Assembly: GCF_949628265.1 (NCBI RefSeq)
Contig: NC_088788.1
Coordinates: 34,582,335-34,646,334, forward strand
Length of the DNA stretch: 64,000 nt
DNA from: Cloeon dipterum
Taxonomy: Eukaryota > Arthropoda > Insecta > Ephemeroptera > Baetidae
Direction: 5' to 3'
Shown: positions 1 to 50,617 of the stretch, piece by piece
Layout of the letters: every line of letters starts with the position of its first letter
Numbering within the stretch: the first letter of the stretch is position 1
Notes under the pieces: generated by a model
Databases searched by the model: none
What the model was told of the DNA's origin: nothing
What the model saw: only the letters and a program-made list of their open reading frames with translations
Translations under genes and position numbers: made by a program

Positions 1-349
1 TAATAATAAACCTGCCTTGTCTAGGTTGAGCAGCAGGCCCAGCAAATGTCGTCCGCAGTGGCGTTCAAATGCAAAACAGGACACCTGGACGGTGCCGATT
101 TTTGTGCGGTCGAGGAAGGAAGGGTTAGGCCTTGTTGAGGTGAGTATTTTAGCAGTGAAATTAGCACTGTGGGCTAATAATAAACCTGCCTTGTCTAGGT
201 TGAGCAGCAGGCCCAGCAAATGTCGTCCGCAGTGGCGTTCAAATGCAAAACATGACACCTGGACGGTGCAGATTTTTGTGCGGTCGAGGAAGGAAGGGTT
301 AGGCCTTGTTGAGGTGAGTTTTAGCAGTGAAATTAGCACTGTGGGCTAA
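1..349 (-). repeat. 174-bp satellite, about two units, inverted relative to the array at 10752-12087
   Basis: About two head-to-tail units, running off the left edge of the window. The unit is recognised by its core 'ctgctgctcaacctagac' (reverse strand here) and by 'cttccttcctcgaccg'. The same unit recurs at 7590-7680, 8985-9135 and 10752-12087, always in the opposite orientation to this copy. Reading frames cross the repeats because the period is a multiple of three. I do not regard them as genes. Confidence 0.9.
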
Positions 350-353
350 TAAT

Positions 354-1819: not shown

Positions 1820-4800
1820 ATGGCACAAACACTGTCAATCACAAATGGCAAGACCTTCAAAAGTTTTAGTGATCTTTCAGAGGCAATTAAGGCATTGGAA
1901 CAAGAAACCTTCATTGTGTATACATGCCTAAGCAGCAACTACATAAAAATCTCTGACAAGGTGGTTGATGCAGCGGCCAGGGCCAAATTGGAGACAAAGA
2001 AGAACAAATTGGTCATTAGATCTGCCAAATATGCATGTATCCATTATGGAGATCCCGTTGATGGTCGTTCGACAGGGCAGCGCCCCAATCAGAAGTAAAT
2101 ATACATTACATATTTTCCAACATGTGCATTCAGTTATGAGGGATTTTGAGCAATTGGAAACATGAGAATAATTTGCACTACAATGTGCCCTTAATTTGAA
2201 AATTGTGATTATTTGTAATACATTAATACAAAAACTTCACATATCCTTAATGCTAAGCACATATTATTTTGATTTTTGTATGCAATACATATTATCCAAA
2301 TTTTTTCTTTCAATATTGCATATCATTAGCTACATTGTTATAAGGAACAATAATTTTTCAGATCCTACAAACTTGGCTGTGGTGCCTATTTCAAGGTGGG
2401 CACTCGTAATGAAATGCTATACATCTACGACTGTCACGTGACCACAGACGTACATGAAAAGGTGCACAAACCATGTCCGGCTGATTTTGCACAATACCCT
2501 AAGCAGCGTAGATTGAACAACACAGAGAAGGAGCGTCTGCAGCAGCTTGACGACCTTGGAGTGAATCCAACCAAGATAAGAGAGGTTATCATGAAGGAGA
2601 CGGGGAAAGCAGTCCTACCCAAGGATCTGGACAATGAGAAGTAATATATCAATATAACACATAAAAATCTGGCTACAAAATTTTCTATTGATTATAAAAT
2701 GGTATACTTTCACATGTAAATATTCTAAAGATGGTTATATGATTAAAATCGAGTCTCTCAAGTAGTGAACTCTCGATGACAGCACATTTTGATTTCATTA
2801 GGTATTATCTTGTCTCCATGCACCTTTAGTTCTCGTTTCAGAGGGTTTGAATATTATTTATGACATTCGCATACCAGCTTATTTTTTTGCCAATGGAGAT
2901 CCACCATCCGGAATCTGAAAAAATAGGAGCTCACAAAGTACACATTTATCAACTTGTTATGTTTCACTTATCTGACACCAGGCTTTCTCAATCCTTTAGA
3001 CCCCAAGTCCTGAACCATATCATGCCAATAGATTGCCTGAAAAAAAATAAACAAATTTAGAATTTACTTGAAACAGGTTTATATTCATCTTTTTATCACA
3101 GACAAAGGAAGAAGAGGGAAGAAACCGAAAAATATGCAAATTTTGAGCCACATGAGAGGGAATTGATGCTTGCAGCAGAAACTATGAGGGATTTGTTTGA
3201 AAAGGACTCTGAAGGTATCCAGTGTTTATGAAAATGTCAGCTAAATTGAGCTTACCATTGCATATTATGTTTGTAATTAGGATCATACACAATCATCACT
3301 GGTCCGGAGGGCAACTTCTCATGTCTTTTCATCGCAACCTCAGAGATGAAGAAGAATTACGCAAAATTTCCAGAGCTGCTCCTGTTTGATTCAACCTACA
3401 ACAAAAATGCATATCGGTTACCAATCACATGCTTCATGGTGGTCGATGGAAATAGAGCAGGGAGAGTGGTTGGTTATAGTGTTTTGGCTGACGAGAGGGC
3501 TTCAACAGTGACATCTGCCCTGCAAGCACTGCAAGAAGCACACAAGAATTACACTGGGGAGCTTAAGACTGTCTTTATCGATAAGGACATGTCAGAATTC
3601 GCAGCCATTCAAGCTGTTTTCCCACATGCTCAAGTTGACTACTGTCTGTTCCATAGCAGCAAGCACTTGCGAAATGAAGCTAGAACAGCAGCACCACCAG
3701 AAGTCAAAGAAGAAATTCAGGCCATTGTCGAGAAACTAATGTTCGAAGCACGAACAGAAGCTGTATACATGGAACTCTACAACAAACTGTGCCAACTGAT
3801 TCCGGATAGCAAGCAGAAGTTCAGGGCCTACTATGACAAGAATTGGCACAGTTGCAAAGAAATGTGGACTGCTTTTGGCAGGTCCATGTCAGAGAACTTC
3901 GGAATCCGGACGACAAATCATTGTGAATCGCACAATAAAGCCTTATCCATGGTTCTTAAACGGAATGGATCCCTAGTGTTTACTATCAAAAAGCTCATCA
4001 TGCTCCAATATGACAAAACCGTAAGCCTTGAATACAAGAAGCACTGCTACACAACAAAGGTTAGCACATACAGGCCACAACAGGGAGCAGAGGTCTCGGA
4101 GGCACGAAAAGCTCTCAAAGATTATACCGAGTACTGCATCACTCTGCTCGAAAAGCAAGAAAAATATGTGCCTTTGTGCAAGAGGGAATACTTCACTACT
4201 TACAAAACTACAGAGCTAAACTGTCAATGCCCTTTCTATAAGGGCATTAAATTACCTTGCTACCACATCATGGCTCTGAGGAAGGAAATTGGGCTTCCCA
4301 TGATCGATGCTGTGGAAATCCCAATGCGCTGGACCATTCAATACCAAACTTGTGAGCAGCAGCTGCCTCCTTCTGAAACAAATGATGAGGTATGTGGTAC
4401 AATATTGAACTTTGGTTTAGTATTTTTAATTAAAATGTATTTCAGAGTCAGCTAGTGCAAATTCCGAGAAGGGCTACCAAAGCACAGAGCCGAGAACAAA
4501 AATACAACAGAGCTCTGGCCATCTGCAAGCAAATTGCTGATTCTGCATCACACCTTGGCACAAAGCAATTTGACGATAGTCTATTGAACCTGCAGCAGAT
4601 TAAGCAATTAATTGACACTGAAGGAGCTTTCTTTGTAGCTGGAAAAAATTGTAATTTTACATAATAATATGATTTGTACTAGAAATTTACATTAATTCAC
4701 ATTTATAGCTGGCAGAAATGCGAATGTGTTGCGTCCAGTGGAAGACGTAGGAGTTTTTGACGTTGAAGAAGTCTGCTCTGTCTCTTGCGAAGATGATGGA

Positions 4801-6964
4801 AATAATGTTGAGGCACAGGCAAACTATTCTGTGCAAGCTGAGGAGTCACAGGGTCGGGAAATTGGCTCTGCGGAAGACGGATTGGCGCTGGTTGAAGTGT
4901 CAGAAGTTGAATCTGCTGGGCAAGAGGCAGGCAAGGATTTCGAGGAGGATAAAGATGGCTCGGTGGAAATTGCAGTGGCTCATGAAGAAGAATCTGCAAT
5001 TGAGGAATTTGGCTCTAGGGGTCAAGACGCTGGCAAGGATTTAGAGAATGAGAAAGATAGCTCTGGGGAAGTCGAGGTTTATGAGAAGAGCGATGATGTG
5101 AAAGAGGCCAAAGCTGGACCACCACTAATTAGCAGCACGCCTAAAAAAGTGATAGAAATTGATCTTACAATAGGTAAAAACTCCGTTCCCTAAGAGTATT
5201 TTATCCACTAACAATCAATGTTACAAGATGAATCTGATGAAATGATAAATGCAACAACAAGCGTTACCAAAAGTGAGAAAGCAGAGGTTGATGCTGTTGA
5301 ACAGGATGATGGTATTTTTAGTTTACAGCAACAATATCTTGTATAATGTTGATAAAAACTATCTCCCGTAGCTCTCGATGACGAGGCGCTGAGACAAATT
5401 TCACAAATAGAAGACATTGCTCTTTCTCAGAGAGAGAGGCAGGAGCAGAGCAAACTGAGTGGTACTGAGATGATTGTAAAGTATGAAATTATTAATTTTT
5501 CTTTTTTCTGCGTTCAGATGAAATCAGCGAGTATGGTTTACAACAGATAAGCCAGGCTGAGATTTCAGCTCTCAGCACTGGAATCAATTCTGGCTTGGAC
5601 AGCAAGCAATCAGAAGGTGGTATGTGTGTAAGACAAATGTAAATTTTTCACCAAAACAATGTATTCGATTTCAGAGAACAATGCAGGCAGAAATGAGGCA
5701 AGTAAGAGCAGAGATATTGCAACTGAGCCTGGATTTGATACAATCAGAATTACTTCAGGTACAAAAATCATGATTAATAAATTATGAGCATACTAATTAT
5801 AACTCACTTCTTCCAGCATCAGAGTTTTTGAGAAACATCACTTCTCAGCAGAAGATTGGTTTTCCACTAAAACCAAAGGTCCGTGGTCGACCAAAAGGGA
5901 CAAGTAACGAGCACCGGGACAAGCTGAAGAAGCACGCGCAGAGCAAGAATCCAGCTGGAAATGATGATGGTATATTGTAAAAAAATTACAATTTGCAATT
6001 ATATTATGAAGCATATATAATGATCAAATGAGTTACGTTAATGAAATTTGCAAAATTTCTTAATATTATAGAAAAACTGAAGGAGCTACTCATGGAAAAA
6101 ACATCTTTTAGTGTGAAACTGATTGAAGAATTTTTCGACAACAACATTGAGGTGCCTGATGACTTTGTGGCCATGTTTATTGAGAAGCTGGACAAAGAAG
6201 AAAAATATCAAGGACTTCAGTCACCTGCACTGGTGCAATTGCAAGTAGACTGTTACCAAGCTTGTCTTAAAAAAGAATACGTGCAGATTTTGCACACCCT
6301 TGCGCATTGGATTACCGTTAGGTTTGATGGAAAGGAATTTTTCTACTACGATTCAAAGCGAAATAGGCCAATTGCAGATTCTACAGAAATTCAGTTTGCT
6401 CATATCGCCAAAGATTGTGACTTAAATGAGTTGAAAATTAACAAGATGGTCTGTCAATATCAAAAGAAGGATGCTAACAATTGTGGACTGTTTGCTATTG
6501 CAAATGCAACAGAGATTGCTATGTATGGCCATGTTGATCCCAACAAGCATTTTGTAACAAATTTGATGAAGCGCCATTTGGCCTATTTACTTGTGACTGA
6601 CAAACTGATTGCTTTCCCTTCGAAGGCAAAGCCTGGTCCCAAGAACACAACTTCTGTCCGAGAAGTCATTACTGTCCCCCTCTACTGCATTTGCAAAATG
6701 CCCCAATCGTTTGACAAACGCACAATGCAGTGTCCTGTTTGTGAAAATTGGCTACATCCAAGGTGTATTGGACACCCTAGAGCAGAAATTGAGGGTGACC
6801 TGAATTTATCATTCAAGGAAATTGCCAACTGGAAATGTGGTCTATGTGGTGACAAAAATTTGAGTGCAACAGTCACTATCAGGCAGACGCCAATCAAAGA
6901 GTTTGGCCTAAATGACTCAGACAGTGCTAGTTCAACTTGTGAAGATTCGCAAGTAAATGATTGA
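1820..6964 (+). CDS. Mutator-like (MULE) transposase with SWIM finger, AT-hook, Ulp1-like protease and PHD finger
   Basis: Twelve exons (1820-2094, 2362-2640, 3102-3214, 3281-4389, 4446-4650, 4709-5173, 5228-5311, 5372-5461, 5518-5619, 5675-5758, 5817-5969, 6072-6964) have consensus splice sites and matching phases and sum to 3852 nt (1283 aa). Domains in order: an N-terminal Cys/His DNA-binding region of FAR1/ZSWIM3 style (about 1-185); a MULE DDE transposase (D about 259 in 'LLLFDSTY', D about 323 in 'FIDKDMSEF', E about 438 in 'NHCESHNKAL'); a SWIM finger CxCx9CxH (about 537-551); acidic repeated exons; an AT-hook 'RGRPKG'; a Ulp1/C48 cysteine protease-like domain (H about 1065 'LAHWITV', D about 1080 'YYDS', Q about 1117, C about 1124 'NNCGLFAIA'); and a C-terminal PHD finger (about 1190-1250). 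No disabling change was seen. It is either an autonomous element or a domesticated gene. The start is the first Met of the first open exon. Activity is inferred only from intact residues. Confidence 0.85.
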
Positions 6965-7075: not shown

Positions 7076-7081
7076 AATAAA
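7076..7081 (+). terminator. Poly(A) signal of the MULE gene
   Basis: AATAAA lies 112 nt past the stop codon in AT-rich sequence, at the expected distance for the 3' end of this transcript. Confidence 0.6.
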
Positions 7082-7589: not shown

Positions 7590-7682
7590 CTTAATCGCCA
7601 CTGCGGACGGCATTCACCTGGCCTGCTGCTCAACCTAGACAAGGCAGGTTTATTATTAGCCCAGTGCTTATTGCAATATTTT
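7590..7682 (+). repeat. Partial satellite unit, left half, split by the Penelope-like insertion
   Basis: Contains the satellite core 'ctgctgctcaacctagac' and the tail 'ttattattagcccagtgc', in the orientation of the main array at 10752-12087. It stops at 'cccagtgct'. The satellite resumes at 8984 with 'tgctaatttcactgct'. The two pieces look like one unit interrupted by an insertion. Confidence 0.75.
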
Positions 7683-8983
7683 TCATGAAAATATTATCCA
7701 TTTTGGAAATATAAATTCATATATTAAGGAAATTGATATATAAGGTCAAATTCAAATACATTAGAATTTTGGTAAAGGAAGGAAAAAGAATATGCACGAC
7801 AGAAGAAGGATTTGAAAAATATAAAACAAGGATCTCAGATGCTTTCAAAAAACAAGGTTATGACGAGTCATTAATTAAAAAGCAAATTAAAAGAACGATA
7901 TATCACAAAAAATCTAAAAATAATAGGGAAAATACCATACCTCCGCTAGTACTCCCTTATCAACCCAGCTTACAAAAAATGCGCAAAGTAATAAATTTAG
8001 CCTCCAACATCCTTACTTCGTCAAAAGTCACAAAAGATATCTTTAAAGAGCCAGCGACTCTCGCATTCTCAAGGAGCGCCAATTTAGCAAACATTATTGC
8101 AAAAAACCCACAACGGAAAATCTAAACCCGGCGCCACCAAAAGGCCCACAAGGCTCATACCCTTGCAAACAATTCAAAACCCAAGCCACAAGAGGCCCGC
8201 CGTGTAAAACATGCCAAATCCACAAACCAGCAAAGTCTGTGACAGCCCCAAACACAGGCAAAAATTACCTTATTTCAGGCCATAACACCTGCACAACTGA
8301 AAAATTAGTTTGCTTCCTTCAATGCAAATTTTGCGACGCCCATTATATTGGCAAAACAATAAATACCCTGAGATCACGAATGAATGGCCACAGACAAACG
8401 GTACGGCGTGAAGCAGATGTTCCGGTAGCTGAACATGCGCTCTCTCACAATAAAAGAGAATTAGAAAAATGTTTCACAGTAAAAATAATTAGATCACTCC
8501 CAAAAAAATCAACCCCCGGCGACCTACGTAGATTAGAACAGGCCTTTATTTACGATTTCCAATCTCAAACCGTCCCTGGCATAAATAGATACATTTAAAT
8601 AAATTCAGAGCAAGACTTAACCATGTAAATAAAAAGTAAAAAAATAGAAATTTTAAGATCAAGCAATATATCACACAACCACCTCCACCAACTACCCTTC
8701 CCCCCTCCACAAACCCTGACCATAACGTGTGTACTCCTACATCATCACCGCTCTCATCTCATTCTACCTACGCGAGCTGACGAAGGCACTCACACATGCA
8801 GTGCCGAAAATTTCTCCAAACAAACTATCTCCTCATCTTTTGTGTGTTCGTAACATCAACAAGTAAGTACACAAGACTCCTATCAAACACTCCTTTCCCA
8901 CGTCTTGCGTGATATATTACCAAAATTCTAATGTACTTGAATTTGACCTTATATATAAATTTCCTTAATAAATGAATTGCTAA
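7683..8983 (+). mobile_element. Penelope-like retroelement fossil, endonuclease-end fragment
   Basis: A broken, 5'-truncated Penelope-like element. The recognisable part is the C-terminal region with a GIY-YIG endonuclease ('AHYIGKTINTLRSRMNGH'-type motif, about 8290-8590) preceded by a basic linker region (about 7733-8125). No reverse-transcriptase domain is visible. The outer about 60 bp at each side (about 7712-7770 and 8920-8975) are inverted copies of each other, an arrangement known for Penelope-like elements. It interrupts one unit of the 174-bp satellite, with a possible 4-5 bp target duplication (tgct). It is younger than the satellite it sits in. The family is assigned from the GIY-YIG domain and structure, not from a database match. 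Confidence 0.75.
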
Positions 8984-9137
8984 TTTCACTGCTAAAACTC
9001 ACCTCAACAAGGCCTAACCCTTCCTTCCTCGACCGCACAAAAATCGGCACCGTCCAGGTGTCCTGTTTTGCATTTGAACGCCACTGCGGACGACATTTGC
9101 TGGGCCTGCTGCTCAACCTAGACAAGGCAGGTTTTAA
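8984..9137 (+). repeat. Satellite unit, right half after the Penelope-like insertion
   Basis: Runs from 'tgctaatttcactgctaa' through 'cttccttcctcgaccgcac' to 'aacctagacaaggcagg', a near-complete 174-bp unit. It is in the same orientation as the array further right. Confidence 0.85.
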
Positions 9138-9210
9138 TGCGCTAAAAGTTATGGTACATATATTTGCATGTATACATTCTCTGTTTGCATTTTGATAATA
9201 TTTTACATAT

Positions 9211-10648
9211 GGCGGAGACACAATTCTGGGCCATTCCACACTTCTGGGCCACTTCCATTTAAATAGCATTGTTTTCATTGTTGATGGGTCCCCACGTGAT
9301 TTTAAATTGAACCAATTGGTTCAATTTTGGTCATTTGGTTCAAAGATTGCACTTTTTTGAACCAATTGATGCAATTATCCTATTAATAGAACCAATTTTG
9401 GTTCAAAATCAAATCAATGAACCAAGTTGGTTCAATTTTTTGTTTTAATGAAGCAACATACAGAAGTTTTGGTTCAATTTTTTAAAATAAAGAATCAAAT
9501 CATGTCTGTAACAGAGTTTTGGTTCTTTATTTCTAAAAAATAGAAGCAAAGTTTGTTTAAGAGTATCTATTGGTTCAATAATTTGCAACAAAGAATCAAA
9601 ACTTCAAGCATTCGTATGTATTTTTGACTCAGAATAATGTAAATATTTTGGTTAATATTTAGGAAAAAACGAATAAAAACTTTGGATTTTTTCCATATGA
9701 ACATCTTAAAAATTATGTTATGATCCGATTAAATTTTAACTCCTTTCATTAATTAAACAATCACTATGCACAAGAAAACAGGGAATTTGGTTCATATTTT
9801 TTAGGTTTCAATATAGAATAACATTTTAAGTATTGATGGGGTGGAATGTATAATTTTGCTACATTGCTGTTTTCATTCAGAGAACCAAAAACTTCATATG
9901 TTTCAGTACCACAAAATTAAAAATTTCTAAATTTTTTTCAGTTTATTAACTCATTATTTGCCAACATCAAATGGTGTGTGCAATCATTTTTTAATTTCTT
10001 GCAAATAACCAAATGCCAAAAAACAAACCTTTTATAAAAATTTGAAAATTTTATTGGTACATAACCCCGGAAATCTTTATTAATAAGTTTTTGTAGGTAT
10101 ATTTAATGTTGCAACTGGCCCAATGAGAGTAGAATATAAGTTAAATCAGGACGTTTTCTCACATAATGGCTGATTAGTCACTAAAAGCAGGCGCATCTTC
10201 CACGGTTTTTTCCTATTTGATATATATACGTCAAATTTTTAAAACATATACCGTTACGCGAGTGGTGCAGAGGGTAGAGGATGTGCTCATAAATCACAAG
10301 GTTCGAATCCAGGTAAGAACTAATTAAGTTATGTGTTTTCAGCCAATTAAATTACAAGACTTAATCAGTCTATTCATCCTTAGGTGCGAAAAGTGCAAAT
10401 TGCATCTAAATTTAAAATATATTTAAAATTTTGAAAATTTATTCATTAAACCAATTGGTTCTTTATTTGAAATCATTGCATTAAGGATTTGGTTCAATTT
10501 TTGTCCCCCTTTGAACCAAAAAACTTTGAACCAATTGGTTCAATTTAAAATCACGTGGGTCACAACAATAAAATCCATAAAATCAATGCTTTTCTTATGG
10601 AAGTGGCCCAGAAGTGTGGACTGGCCCAGAATTGTGTCTCCGCCATAC
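9211..10648. mobile_element. Nested terminal-inverted-repeat element with 'ttggttcaa' subterminal repeats
   Basis: The outer ends are about 75-85 bp inverted repeats starting 'atggcggagacacaattc'. Directly inside them is a second inverted pair starting 'cacgtgattttaaattgaac' (about 9292 and 10556). Many copies of 'ttggttcaa' and the palindrome 'ttgaaccaattggttcaa' follow in the inner 200 bp at each side. The simplest reading is a roughly 160-bp hairpin MITE whose loop received a roughly 1.27-kb non-autonomous TIR element. An imperfect single TIR of about 115 bp is the alternative. No transposase is seen. Possible flanking duplication 'acat'. Confidence 0.7.
10254..10318 (+). repeat. tRNA-like sequence with A and B boxes (SINE head or tRNA pseudogene)
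   Basis: An A-box-like 'gtggtgcagagggtaga' is followed by a perfect B box 'ggttcgaatcc'. Between them is a loop 'ctcataaat' closed by tgtg/caca, resembling a Met-type anticodon arm. No paired acceptor stem is visible, so this is not a functional tRNA gene. It is probably the tRNA-derived head of a SINE, or a degenerate tRNA, inside the TIR element. Confidence 0.55.
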
Positions 10649-10751
10649 ATATTATATGCAATCTGTTTATGTATGATTATTATGAATAGAAAATCAAGTT
10701 CCACCAAAGAAAATCGAGAAATAATGGCCCAAAATACAGATCCAAATCAGC

Positions 10752-12087
10752 CCAGTGCTAATTTCACTGTTAAAACTCACCTCAACAAGACCTAACCCTT
10801 CCTTCCTCGACCGAACAAAAATCGGCACCGTCCAGGTGACCTGTTTTGCATTTCGTCGCCACTGCGGACGACATTTGCTGGGCCTGCTGCTCAACCTAGA
10901 CAAGGCAGGTTTATTATTAGCCTACAGTGCTAATTTCACTGCTAAATCTCACCTCAACAAGGCCTAACCCTTCCTTCCTCGACTGAACAAAAATCGGCAC
11001 CATCCAGGTGTCCTGTTTTGCATTTGAACGCCACTGCGGACGACATTTGCTGGGCCTGCTGCTCAACCTAGACAAGGCAGGTTTATTATTAGCCCACAGT
11101 GCTAATTTCACTGCTAAAATACTCACCTCAACAAGGCCTAACCCTTCCTTCCTCGACCGCACAAAAATCTGCACCGTCCAGGTGTCATGTTTTGCATTTG
11201 AACGCCACTGCGGACGACATTTGCTGGGCCTGCTGCTCAACCTAGACAAGGCAGGTTTATTATTAGCCCACAGTGCTAATTTCACTGCTAAAATACTCAC
11301 CTCAACAAGGCCTAACCCTTCCTTCCTCGACCGCACAAAAATCTGCACCGTCCAGGTGTCATGTTTTGCATTTGAACGCCACTGCGGACGACATTTGCTG
11401 GGCCTGCTGCTCAACCTAGACAAGGCAGGTTTATTATTAGCCCACAGTGCTAATTTCACTGCTAAAATACTCACCTCAACAAGGCCTAACCCTTCCTTCC
11501 TCGACCGCACAAAAATCTTCCTTCCTCGACCGAACAAAAATCGGCACCATCCAGGTGTCCTGTTTTGCATTTCGTCGCCACTGCGGACGACATTTGCTGG
11601 GCCTGCTGCTCAACCTAGACAAGGCAGGTTTATTATTAGCCCACAGTGCTAATTTCACTGCTAAAATACTCACCTCAACAAGGCCAAATCCTTCCTTCCT
11701 CGACCGCACAAAAATCTGCACCGTCCAGGTGTCCTGTTTTGCATTTGAACGCCACTGCGGACGACATTTGCTGGGCCTGCTGCTCAACCTAGACAAGGCA
11801 GGTTTATTATTAGCCCACAGTGCTAATTTCACTGCTAAAATACTCACCTCAACAAGGCCTAACCCTTCCTTCCTCGACCGCACAAAAATCTGCACCGTCC
11901 AGGTGTCATGTTTTGCATTTGAACGCCACTGCGGACGACATTTGCTGGGCCTGCTGCTCAACCTAGACAAGGCAGGTTTATTATTAGCCCACAGTGCTAA
12001 TTTCACTGCTAAAACTCACCTCAACAAGGCCAAATCCTTCCTTCCTCGGGTCGTGTCCATGCCACGCGGGAATCGGCACCGTCCAGA
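10752..12087 (+). repeat. Tandem array of the 174-bp satellite, about 8 units
   Basis: Units recur every 174 bp (for example 'cacctcaacaagg' at 11124, 11298 and 11472). A three-base-shorter variant lacks 'ata' before 'ctcacc'. Units are nearly identical. One internal partial duplication occurs around 11510-11550. The last unit (12017-12087) has part of its sequence replaced after 'cttccttcctcg', then 'aatcggcaccgtccag' resumes. The period is 58 codons, so frames stay open on both strands across several units. The composition and repeat nature argue against a protein. Confidence 0.95.
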
Positions 12088-12394
12088 CTTGGACGCGCAG
12101 GGTCGTCCCCAGGTCGTTTGTCCCTGTGAACAATACGGCGAATCTTCCTGTGTGATTTGCAAAGTTGGCGACCGCTTTCTTTGTTCGCTTACCACTAGCA
12201 TTTCCTGTTTTCTGGTGCTCGTGGCTTCGTTTTCCGGAATTTTCACAGTTCCGCTCCGGTCCGCGCTCCGCTCTCCGCTTGGCAAGATGGCGGCGACGAC
12301 CGTGAGCCGGCGCCGGCAGTCGGTGTCGTCCACGGGCTTTTCAGTGCTTGTCGTTGCCGCCCATTCTGCGATGTTGCCAGATTGCTATTGTTGT
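12088..12394 (+). promoter_or_regulatory. Probable promoter and 5' non-coding exon of the NCOA5-like gene
   Basis: A GC- and CpG-richer island between the satellite and the minisatellite. It contains 'caagatggcggc' at about 12283, the classic YY1-type element often found near transcription starts of housekeeping genes. A possible splice donor (gtag|gtatag) lies near 12395. The coding exon at 12945 is preceded by a strong pyrimidine tract and 'cag', so a 5' UTR intron is expected. That this region is the start of the transcript is inference. Confidence 0.45.
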
Positions 12395-12620
12395 AGGTAT
12401 AGGACATACCGTTGTTGTAGGTATACAACAATTGTTGTATATATAGGATATACCGTTGTTGTAGGTATACAACAATTGTTGTATATATAGGATATACCGT
12501 TGTTGTAGGTATACAACATTGTTGTATATATAGGATATACCGTTGTTGTAGGTATACAACATTGTTGTATATATAGGTTATTCATTGTTGTATATACAAC
12601 TTTGTTGTATATATATCTAT
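12385..12620. repeat. Palindromic minisatellite, 43-44 bp unit
   Basis: About four to five units, each with 'ccgttgttgtaggtat' followed by the palindrome 'tacaacaattgttgta' and 'tatataggata'. The rightmost units are degenerate. The unit is self-complementary, so the array could form hairpins or cruciforms. It lies in the presumed 5' intron of NCOA5. Confidence 0.9.
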
Positions 12621-12944
12621 ACCCAACCAAAACACAAACAAACACATTCTCGACATTCTCATTGAAAAGTTTGACTAATTTCTAGCCAGATTCAATCTCT
12701 CCTCGCTTTCAAAAAAATAGAGACTGCAGTTGCAATTTGCGTGTGAATAACGGGAGCAATCGGAAATTCTTAACAAAATAACACTGCATTAGAGTAAGAA
12801 TTTTCATTGAATTTATCATGCCATTTTCATGCAATATGTAATGTAGATATCTTATAATGTACATATCATAATTATGTATTAATTTATGTAGCTACACATA
12901 ATATCATTGATAAGTCTCTCTCTCTCTCATTTCAGTTAACGAAA

Positions 12945-23755: not shown

Positions 23756-26070
<2,315 letters not shown>

Positions 26071-48927: not shown

Positions 48928-50617
48928 ATGGGTGAAGTTGCGAAAATAAAAAAGTTCCTGGTTGAAGCCAGGTACCACCAGCAGGATGCCTCCAGCATCG
49001 ACATGATCAATTTGATGAAGCAATATAAAGGACTGGTGTCTAACCTCGAGCCTTACGTCTTCAACGACGGCTCCTGCCGCAAGTTGATCAACCTTGGAGG
49101 AACCATTCCTGTCCGCTACAAAGGCAACACGTACAACATACCTGTTAAGATCTGGCTAATGGACACGCACCCTTTCAACTCGCCAATATGCTATGTCACA
49201 CCCACGGCGGATATGTGCATCAAAGTATGTTGAATACATTATGTTATACAAAAGTAAATTTAATAACACCTATTTCATGGCATGAGGTCATCAATCGTAT
49301 TTTTAATATTAAACTGATAAGGGATTTTCGCTAAAGTTTCACAAAATGGTGCTAGGGTCGTAAAATATTTTATTATCTAAATGTTTATTATTTTACAGGT
49401 TTCTAAGTTTGTCGACCACAATGGAAAAGTTTACCTGCCTTACCTCCACGAATGGGACGCCTCAAAATCTAATTTGCTTGGCTTGGTGCAAGTGATGATT
49501 GTCGTTTTTGGGGAGCAGCCGCCGGTTTACACAAAGGCAAAGGCTCCGTACCCAACTCAGCAGCCGATGGCAGGGTCAAACCCGCCATACCCTGTCTTTT
49601 CGTCGAACAACCCTCTGCCGTATCCGTCAATGCCTCAGCCAGCGATGCCTCAAGCGAGTGGCTATCCTTGCGGGCCAACCCCTTACCCGCCAGTCTCCTC
49701 CGACACGGGCTACCCCCCTGCCTATCCCTCCTCTGCAAACTCTGGGTACCCGCCACCTTATCCACCCATGCAGTCGCAGCCCTCGCCGATGACGAGCTCA
49801 CCATCTGGCTACCCGCCGTCCACCAGTAGCGGCACCATCACTGAGGAACACATCAGGGCCTCGCTGCTCTCAGCCGTCGAGGACAAACTGAGACGGCGGC
49901 TCCGAGAGCAGTTTTCGCAGGGCACCGCCGAACTGGAGACGCTGAGGCGCACCAACATGGAGCTCATTCAGGGCAAGAGCAAGCTGGAGGGGCTTGTCGG
50001 TCGCTTGGAGAAAGACTGCTCTGAGCTGGAAAAGGCGATTTCGGTTCTTGAGGAAAAGGAGGCTGAAATGGACAAGGTAGGATTGAGTGACAATGTTTTT
50101 AAAACTTGCTTCCAATCTCTCTGACACTAAATTCATTAAATTCGAATTATTAACAAAAGATTCGCAGTCAAAACCTTTTTTGTTTTTAAAAATATATTGA
50201 TTTTGAAGCCTTGCAGTTAATTTTTAAATTATTGATAATATTTTTATTATTTAGCCTAACCAAAATAATTTTAAATAAATCTACGGCAATCTCTAAGTTA
50301 CAATATAGTTTTCCCCTTCTAATGAAGAGCTAAAAATTGTTAATCTCCAACAGGGTTTGGGAAAACTATCGGCTGAAGAGCCACTGGACATTGACGAAGC
50401 GGTCACAACCACCGCGCCGCTTTACAGACAGCTACTGAACGCGTTCGCAGAAGAATCTGCCATTGAAGATGTCATTTATTATCTGGGCGAAGCTCTGCGA
50501 AGAGGACGCATCGACTTGGAATCATTTCTCAAACAAGTGCGAGCTTTGTCTCGAAAGCAATTCATGCTTCGCGCGTTGATGAATCGGTGCCGACAAAAGG
50601 CTGGACTTGCTGGTTAA
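48928..50617 (+). CDS. TSG101: TSG101, ESCRT-I subunit
   Basis: Binds ubiquitinated cargo and P(S/T)AP motifs for multivesicular-body sorting, cytokinesis and related scission. Three exons (48928-49224, 49399-50076, 50354-50617) give 412 aa. The N-terminal UEV domain (about 1-145) has 'GTIPVRYKGNTYNIPVKIWL', 'HPFNSPICYVTPTADMCIKV' and 'VYLPYLHEWDASKSNLLGLV'. It has no catalytic Cys, as in the family. A Pro/Tyr/Gly-rich region of about 110 aa follows. Next is a coiled-coil stalk ('LRRRLREQFSQGTAELETLR', 'LEKDCSELEKAISVLEEKEA'). The C-terminal steadiness box is 'AIEDVIYYLGEALRRGRIDL' with 'FLKQVRALSRKQFMLRALM'. The start at 48928 gives the canonical UEV start helix. Confidence 0.95.

Follow-up and report, generated by a model that had tools for sequence, protein, structure and literature searches.

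A probable autonomous foldback Mutator-like transposon of the Rehavkus kind in Cloeon dipterum, with a gene model joining a transposase to a SENP/Ulp1-like protease domain and a PHD finger

The stretch of Cloeon dipterum DNA analysed here (the window; 64,000 nucleotides, NCBI RefSeq assembly GCF_949628265.1, contig NC_088788.1, positions 34,582,335–34,646,334 of the forward strand) contains one long gene model at 1820–6964 (+). A transposase core of Mutator-like element (MULE) type is followed in it by a SENP/Ulp1-like protease domain and a PHD finger. The locus raises the question of whether such a gene belongs to a transposon or to the host, and what a protease domain and a PHD finger could do on a transposase. 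The window locus is a mobile element, of which we are practically certain. It is probably an autonomous and recently mobile foldback-type MULE of the Rehavkus kind, gene included; at the level of sequence, an intact multi-domain gene model lies between long inverted arms, with 9-bp duplications, five copies and a second, similar family in the same genome.

The genome searched is 190 Mb in size, in 10 contigs of up to 43 Mb; five matches above the cut-off to insect odorant receptors (7tm_6) mark it as that of an insect. Exon 4 and exon 12 of the gene each occur five times in it, and the spacing between the two is 2,791 bases each time. As judged from the motifs and flanks of the five copies, the element of the window (copy A, 13,681 bp) runs from C3:34581278, which is 1,057 bases to the left of the window's first base, up to window position 12624 (+); copies B, C, D and E are 13,024, 14,482, 14,658 and 17,093 bp in length, respectively. 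Each of the five is flanked by its own 9-bp target-site duplication: AACCAAAAC, GTTAAAATA, TTCAATCAA, AACAAAAAA and TTATAAATA. The right copy of AACCAAAAC is located at 12625–12633, and its left copy lies outside the window. A domesticated MULE-derived host gene, selected for a chromatin function, would also hold an intact frame of 1,283 residues, and the top Pfam match of the protein is to ZSWIM1-3, a family named for host genes. However, because the five near-identical copies sit at different sites and share their terminal repeats, and because all five carry duplications and both ends, we read the locus as an element. The window gene is not a single fixed locus without transposon ends, and its being a domesticated host gene is so improbable that we dismissed it. 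The copy search proposed in the preliminary description of this locus thus came out on the side of the element.

The spliced gene is intact in all five copies of this family, hereafter F1; only four coding differences were found among them overall, three of which alter an amino acid. A genome search with the F1 end pattern gave 12 matches. Ten of them mark the two ends of each of the five elements, and the other two bound one relic of ∼206–209 bp (about C1:27341264–27341470), which consists of two terminal minisatellite arms face to face and nothing else, with no clean duplication; beyond this relic, the 12 matches included no short non-autonomous copy. The 174-bp unit of the arms had 99 matches in the genome, all inside the five elements, these counts being lower bounds. 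In copy B, what looked like a 90-nt gap at 354–443 proved to be an artefact of a fixed cut; the copy in fact has ∼90 extra bases near 1118–1209. Outside the genome, the exon-4 protein found three stretches fitting its pattern among viral contigs, none of them confirmed, and exon 12 found no match there (a set from which records close to the genome of the window may be missing); the exon-4 protein had no match among phages.

The gene model has 12 exons. Exons 1–6 are located at 1820–2094, 2362–2640, 3102–3214, 3281–4389, 4446–4650 and 4709–5173, and exons 7–12 at 5228–5311, 5372–5461, 5518–5619, 5675–5758, 5817–5969 and 6072–6964, all on the forward strand. GT-AG is present at every border, the phases agree, and the 3,852 nt including the stop codon encode 1,283 residues. 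The 12 exons, consensus splice sites and in-phase sum of 3852 nt claimed in the preliminary description were all borne out on recheck. The same eleven introns were recovered by a spliced aligner that was given the 1,283-residue protein and the DNA, with the borders withheld; since the protein was derived from the exon model, this agreement is a consistency check and not independent proof. From its sequence, the gene is presumably spliced as modelled. The first AATAAA downstream of the stop codon, at 7076–7081 (+), is a possible polyadenylation signal.

The transposase and the protease parts are separated by a linker (residues 661–945, 4650–5845, +), which by composition and alignment is acidic (25% Asp/Glu) and poorly conserved. 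Such a linker, which has short exons, could mean that the transposon carries the protease and PHD parts as a separate gene, or that they are dropped from some transcripts, and thus are not always fused to the transposase. Intragenic AATAAA motifs at 3046, 3934 and 5776 would fit this possibility, the last one being in intron 10, ahead of the protease. However, every join is in phase and free of stops, the order of the parts is the same in three families, and a phase-1 intron just ahead of the protease is common to F1 (residue 987) and to the second family F3 (residue 985). A separate or detachable gene is in our judgement very unlikely; the transposase, protease and PHD parts very probably make up one fused protein.

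The relatives of the element were found by a genome search with the Pfam profile PF21056, which detected nine loci: the five F1 copies, two copies of F3 (contigs C2 and C4), one locus of F2 (C3) and one of F4 (C5). The two F3 copies are 99.92% identical across 9.9 kb. In F3 the parts follow one another as in F1, with identities of 43 and 37% in two transposase stretches, 33% in the protease and PHD region and 29–37% in N-terminal pieces. Five of its ten modelled introns lie within two residues, and in the same phase, of F1 introns (positions 92, 185, 223, 661 and 987); none of 20,000 random placements of the ten introns yielded five matches to F1. As F3 repeats the order of the main parts at 33–43% identity and shares half of its modelled introns, the architecture is beyond chance. 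Because stops are penalised in the spliced modelling of F3 and F2, their stop-free frames are there by construction. F2 (C3:5457182–5463957), which may be a relic or have taken on a new use, is a single locus with a 493-residue open transposase frame; the first 214 residues of its model are not credible, and it has no recognisable N-terminus. At F4, the exon-12 search gave no match.

F3 is also built like F1 at its ends. The copy on C2 (C2:35601001–35612626) is 11,626 bp in length and is flanked by the 9-bp duplication ATTTTAGTT, this being the one F3 copy examined for it. Its arms are identical over 2,463 bp and contain 173-bp and 44-bp tandem units, with a 21-bp palindrome at base 13. The F3 end pattern has four matches in the genome, which are the ends of the two copies. 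Thus the order of the parts and the plan of the arms persist though the sequences of F1 and F3 have diverged. In the C2 copy the fully identical arms extend into the gene, and its PHD-coding end is present twice, in inverted orientation.

On the transposase side, the Pfam scan of the whole protein gave two matches above the cut-offs, ZSWIM1-3_RNaseH-like (PF21056; 2.5e-26) and MULE (PF10551; 5.8e-16), whereas SWIM (7.7e-4), PHD (6e-4) and ZSWIM3_N (1.2e-3) were under the curated cut-offs. The RNase H-like DDE core is located at 3196–3927 (+), in exon 4 and the last part of exon 3; besides the Pfam matches, its residues are conserved in the relatives. Asp259 (3388–3390), Asp323 (3580–3582) and Glu438 (3925–3927) are presumed to be catalytic, following MULE motifs, and Cys344 and His347 also belong to the core. 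The SWIM zinc finger (Cys537-Cys539-Cys549-His551) is located at 4195–4278 (+), its match (7.7e-4) falling slightly short of the cut-off. The N-terminal region (residues 8–108, 1841–2410, +, with one intron inside) resembles ZSWIM3_N and, with an E value of 0.067, FAR1, neither reaching the cut-off; it is presumably DNA-binding. The VRGRPKG motif (residues 957–963, 5879–5899, +), which we take to be AT-hook-like, is kept in F2.

The protease domain covers about residues 989–1167 (6077–6613, +). Its His1065, Asp1080, Gln1117 and Cys1124 are in the correct order and align, in a profile match, with those of two C48-type proteins that this genome encodes; F3 retains all four. The fold predicted for the domain, obtained from a structure model of exon 12 and a fold search, is that of SENP/Ulp1, so the fold is compatible with a SUMO protease. 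Whether the domain is an active SUMO-type protease we put at even chances. Related viral proteases act on polyproteins, and the domain could likewise cleave the element's own protein and release the transposase from the PHD finger. SUMO-type and related proteases cut at Gly-Gly. This dipeptide is present nowhere in the 1,283 residues, and SUMO proteases outrank the viral ones in the fold search; self-processing at Gly-Gly was therefore rejected, and self-cleavage in general is hardly to be expected. Elsewhere in the genome, at C2:36611400–36612500, a C48-type protease lies within an 867-residue open frame, which could be another element.

The PHD finger, of C4HC3 type, is located at 6686–6847 (+) and is formed by Cys1192, Cys1194, Cys1207, Cys1210, His1215, Cys1218, Cys1242 and Cys1245. 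Among solved structures it matches PHF2 (1.9e-7) and is also similar to BPTF and PHF8. For exon 12 alone the Pfam PHD match (1e-4) is narrowly under the cut-off; it is above the cut-off in F3 and F2. The earlier claim that one gene model holds a DDE transposase, SWIM, an AT-hook, an Ulp1-like protease and a PHD finger is supported.

The gene is flanked by two inverted arms. Two 174-bp tandem units at 1–353 (+) form the inner part of the left arm. The right-arm array, inverted relative to the left one, is located at 7591–12048 (−) and is split by two inserts into a part unit (7591–7663), one unit (8978–9134) and an array (10753–12048). The terminal minisatellite of the right arm follows at 12387–12615 (−); it has a period of ∼44 bp and contains five palindromes of 19–23 bp, spaced 42–44 bp. 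Across the family, each F1 arm has 3–11 units of the 174-bp type (those of at least 150 bp being counted), and the ∼44-bp minisatellite is at the extreme ends. Palindromes of 19–23 bp start at base 12 and recur with a period of 42–46 bp, five to seven per end, in all 10 F1 ends; Markov shuffling of the copy A arms gave means of 0.31 and 0.16. The two ends differ, one reading GGAAAT and the other GGGTAT. Relative to the gene, the GGAAAT arm lies on the upstream side in copies A, B and C, but in D and E it is on the downstream side. Copies C and D have seven core differences in common (506, 625, 1246, 1262, 1551, 2755 and 4091) and the same arm deletion pattern, with opposite arm order. The simplest account of the arm order is that recombination between inverted arms flips the core; gene conversion of the arms is possible as another account.

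To which known kind does the element belong? The DDE domain, terminal inverted repeats (TIRs) and 9-bp duplications (5/5 F1 and 1/1 F3 copies) are traits of the MULE superfamily, in which TIRs are common without being universal and duplications measure about 8–11 bp. The PHD finger, the 9-bp duplications and the 174-bp and ∼44-bp repeat arrays in the arms are traits of Rehavkus. The long inverted arms, with tandem units variable in number and a total length of 13.0–17.1 kb, make up a foldback structure. In the 2019 MULE survey of Dupeyron et al., Rehavkus is characterised by 9-bp duplications, a PHD finger and a minisatellite, and is given for arthropods and annelids from Repbase only (PMC6446971). 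Rehavkus-1_TC of Tribolium is 9.5 kb in size, and its inverted termini mostly contain five and eight monomers of 164 bp (PMC10218199). Like Rehavkus-1_TC and Rehavkus-1_HR, the Cloeon element combines a MULE-like transposase and a PHD finger with 9-bp duplications, an insect host and a minisatellite near the end. Different from the Rehavkus table entry, in which TIRs are 26–400 bp and the minisatellite is at one end (PMC6446971), both arms here are longer than 1 kb and repeated. SWIM, present here, is not listed for Rehavkus in the available text of that survey, in which 'Ulp' and AT-hook have no occurrence; 'Ulp' has none in PMC13359780 either. Assigned from these descriptions, the element likely is of the Rehavkus kind.

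Other known systems share single features with it. Ulp1 has been reported in Mutators of hydra, lancelet and plants, to which the element is similar by description in having both MULE and Ulp1 domains, and a figure there, according to its legend, shows Ginger1 and Mutator transposases aligned over their Ulp1 and PHD domains (PMC2836005). Like F1, Ginger1-9_HM has an animal transposase followed by Ulp1 and PHD, for which a role in transposition or repair has already been proposed; unlike F1, Ginger1 transposons have a core of Gypsy-integrase type rather than MULE type, and a TIR of 44–270 bp (PMC2836005). The foldback elements Tetris (Drosophila virilis) and Tm1 (Meloidogyne) also have long arms with varying numbers of tandem repeats, and duplications of 8–10 and 9 bp, respectively (PMC4079207, PMC3169594). 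However, the complete copies found of Tetris are without a transposase gene and have 220-bp units (PMC4079207), and Tm1 differs in its 14-bp motif and in having a transposase of Phantom-like type (PMC3169594). Muta1 of Aedes aegypti, a Phantom element whose mobility was shown in yeast, has long TIRs, a terminal palindromic motif, subterminal repeats, a DDE MULE transposase and 8–9 bp duplications, but its protein is of 504 residues with a FLYWCH finger, and 'PHD' is absent from the available text (PMC5225508). For Phantom in general, clade 20 of the MULE tree, a FLYWCH finger, SWIM or no finger is given and PHD is unlisted in that text (PMC6446971); here both SWIM and PHD were found. In Pfam, the RNase H-like core is matched best by the vertebrate host genes ZSWIM1 and ZSWIM3, which also match the N-terminus weakly. 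These genes are not known to have a protease or PHD part. Since Rehavkus, Ulp1-bearing Mutators and elements with similar arms have been described, this kind of element is already known. That an animal MULE with Ulp1 or PHD would be new is not supported, PHD being known from Rehavkus and Ulp1 from hydra and lancelet Mutators. In our literature search (Repbase and subscription papers being outside its coverage), none of the papers listed combines Rehavkus with Ulp1, and we saw none on this element.

How might such a protein work? The N-terminal zinc finger, with SWIM and the AT-hook, would bind the palindromes that begin 12–13 bp from each end. The DDE core would then excise the element and join it at a 9-bp stagger; cut-and-paste by this core is well supported from its family. 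The PHD finger may tether the complex to histone H3. The SENP-like domain could strip SUMO from proteins at the element, which might be factors of silencing or of repair, or else the transposase. Removal of SUMO would let excision, repair or expression proceed, and recombination between the arms would sometimes flip the core. A chromatin-linked role of the putative desumoylase is plausible, and SUMO-marked chromatin may be a target or substrate; that desumoylation helps the element is a tentative proposal, to which we give somewhat less than even odds. An extended version is more doubtful still: as an anti-silencing kit, the transposase-fused PHD finger and SUMO protease would de-SUMOylate heterochromatin directed by PIWI-interacting RNAs at the element's own arms, whose units are near the nucleosome repeat. 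Equally doubtful, the units of 174, 173 and, in Tribolium, 164 bp may phase nucleosomes and so display sites of the transposase, along with histone tails, in register.

Several observations weigh against the protein and its arms working in this way. PF02902 (Peptidase_C48) had no match in the Pfam scans of the protein or of exon 12, and none of its seven matches in the genome is at an element locus; owing to this unmatched profile, we name the domain SENP/Ulp1-like and not a C48 member. A ULP chain matched in the PDB with an E value of 0.033, which weakens to 0.71 once a profile is used, and designed repeat proteins and ataxin-3 are among the weak matches of the profile search. The structure model of exon 12 has a mean predicted local distance difference test (pLDDT) score of 49.5, with the PHD portion below 50; this portion being poor, the fold search returned no row for PHD. 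In the alignment with BPTF, taking as reference the four-residue aromatic cage of H3K4me3-reading PHD fingers, Tyr1191 and Trp1213 correspond to the cage Tyr and Trp, and the two middle positions are Gln and Thr, so the finger appears to be without part of the methyl-lysine cage of BPTF type; in copy D, residue 1191 is Asn. The linker has a SUMO-interaction-like motif at residue 808, which is not above chance, as 588 of 2000 shuffled linkers hold one. F3 has one perfect palindrome per end, inside the range of shuffled sequences (means 0.11 and 0.14, maximum 2). By their geometry alone, the F1 palindromes may be sites for the transposase that lie along a single helix face. In F2, the AT-hook, protease region and PHD are kept, while Asn replaces the catalytic Asp and Ser replaces the Cys; its sole intron within two residues of an F1 intron is at chance level (6,121/20,000). 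Among the five F1 copies, the coding and non-coding differences are 4/3852 and 6/2469, respectively (p 0.20), so purifying selection was not detected; as three of the four coding differences also change the amino acid, present selection on the gene is not demonstrated.

The loss of the catalytic residues in F2 bears on one further possibility, in which the protease domain passively binds SUMO or some other ubiquitin-like protein and its activity is dispensable. However, His, Asp, Gln and Cys are all retained in F1 and F3, the two families represented by multiple near-identical copies, and F2 is the single locus with the missing N-terminus. We consider passive binding unlikely. The Cloeon elements are intact, recently moved and of this foldback, Rehavkus-like build; both ends and the duplications are present, together with a gene model and a second family that has diverged. 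For Tetris, none of the copies found bears a transposase (PMC4079207). With the Cloeon elements one can test whether a SUMO protease and a PHD finger that are fused to the transposase aid movement or escape from silencing.

The two inserts in the right-arm array are at ∼7664–8977 and ∼9135–10752. The former contains an open reading frame (8047–8595, +) with a GIY-YIG-like match (E 0.0045, below the cut-off), which by its look we take to be Penelope-like. A probe of this insert has a match in copies A, C, D and E but none in B; with four of the five copies carrying it, the element seems to have moved with the insert, unless B lost it. Two probes of the second insert match A, C and E, but neither B nor D. 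Over the 174-bp array, at 10917–12490, long open frames are found on both strands; as 174 is divisible by three, they look like by-products of the repeat and not genes. Beyond the element, a UPF0489 match (23756–24946, −; 9.1e-50) and a UEV match (49381–50121, +; 2.1e-11) are likely ordinary host genes.

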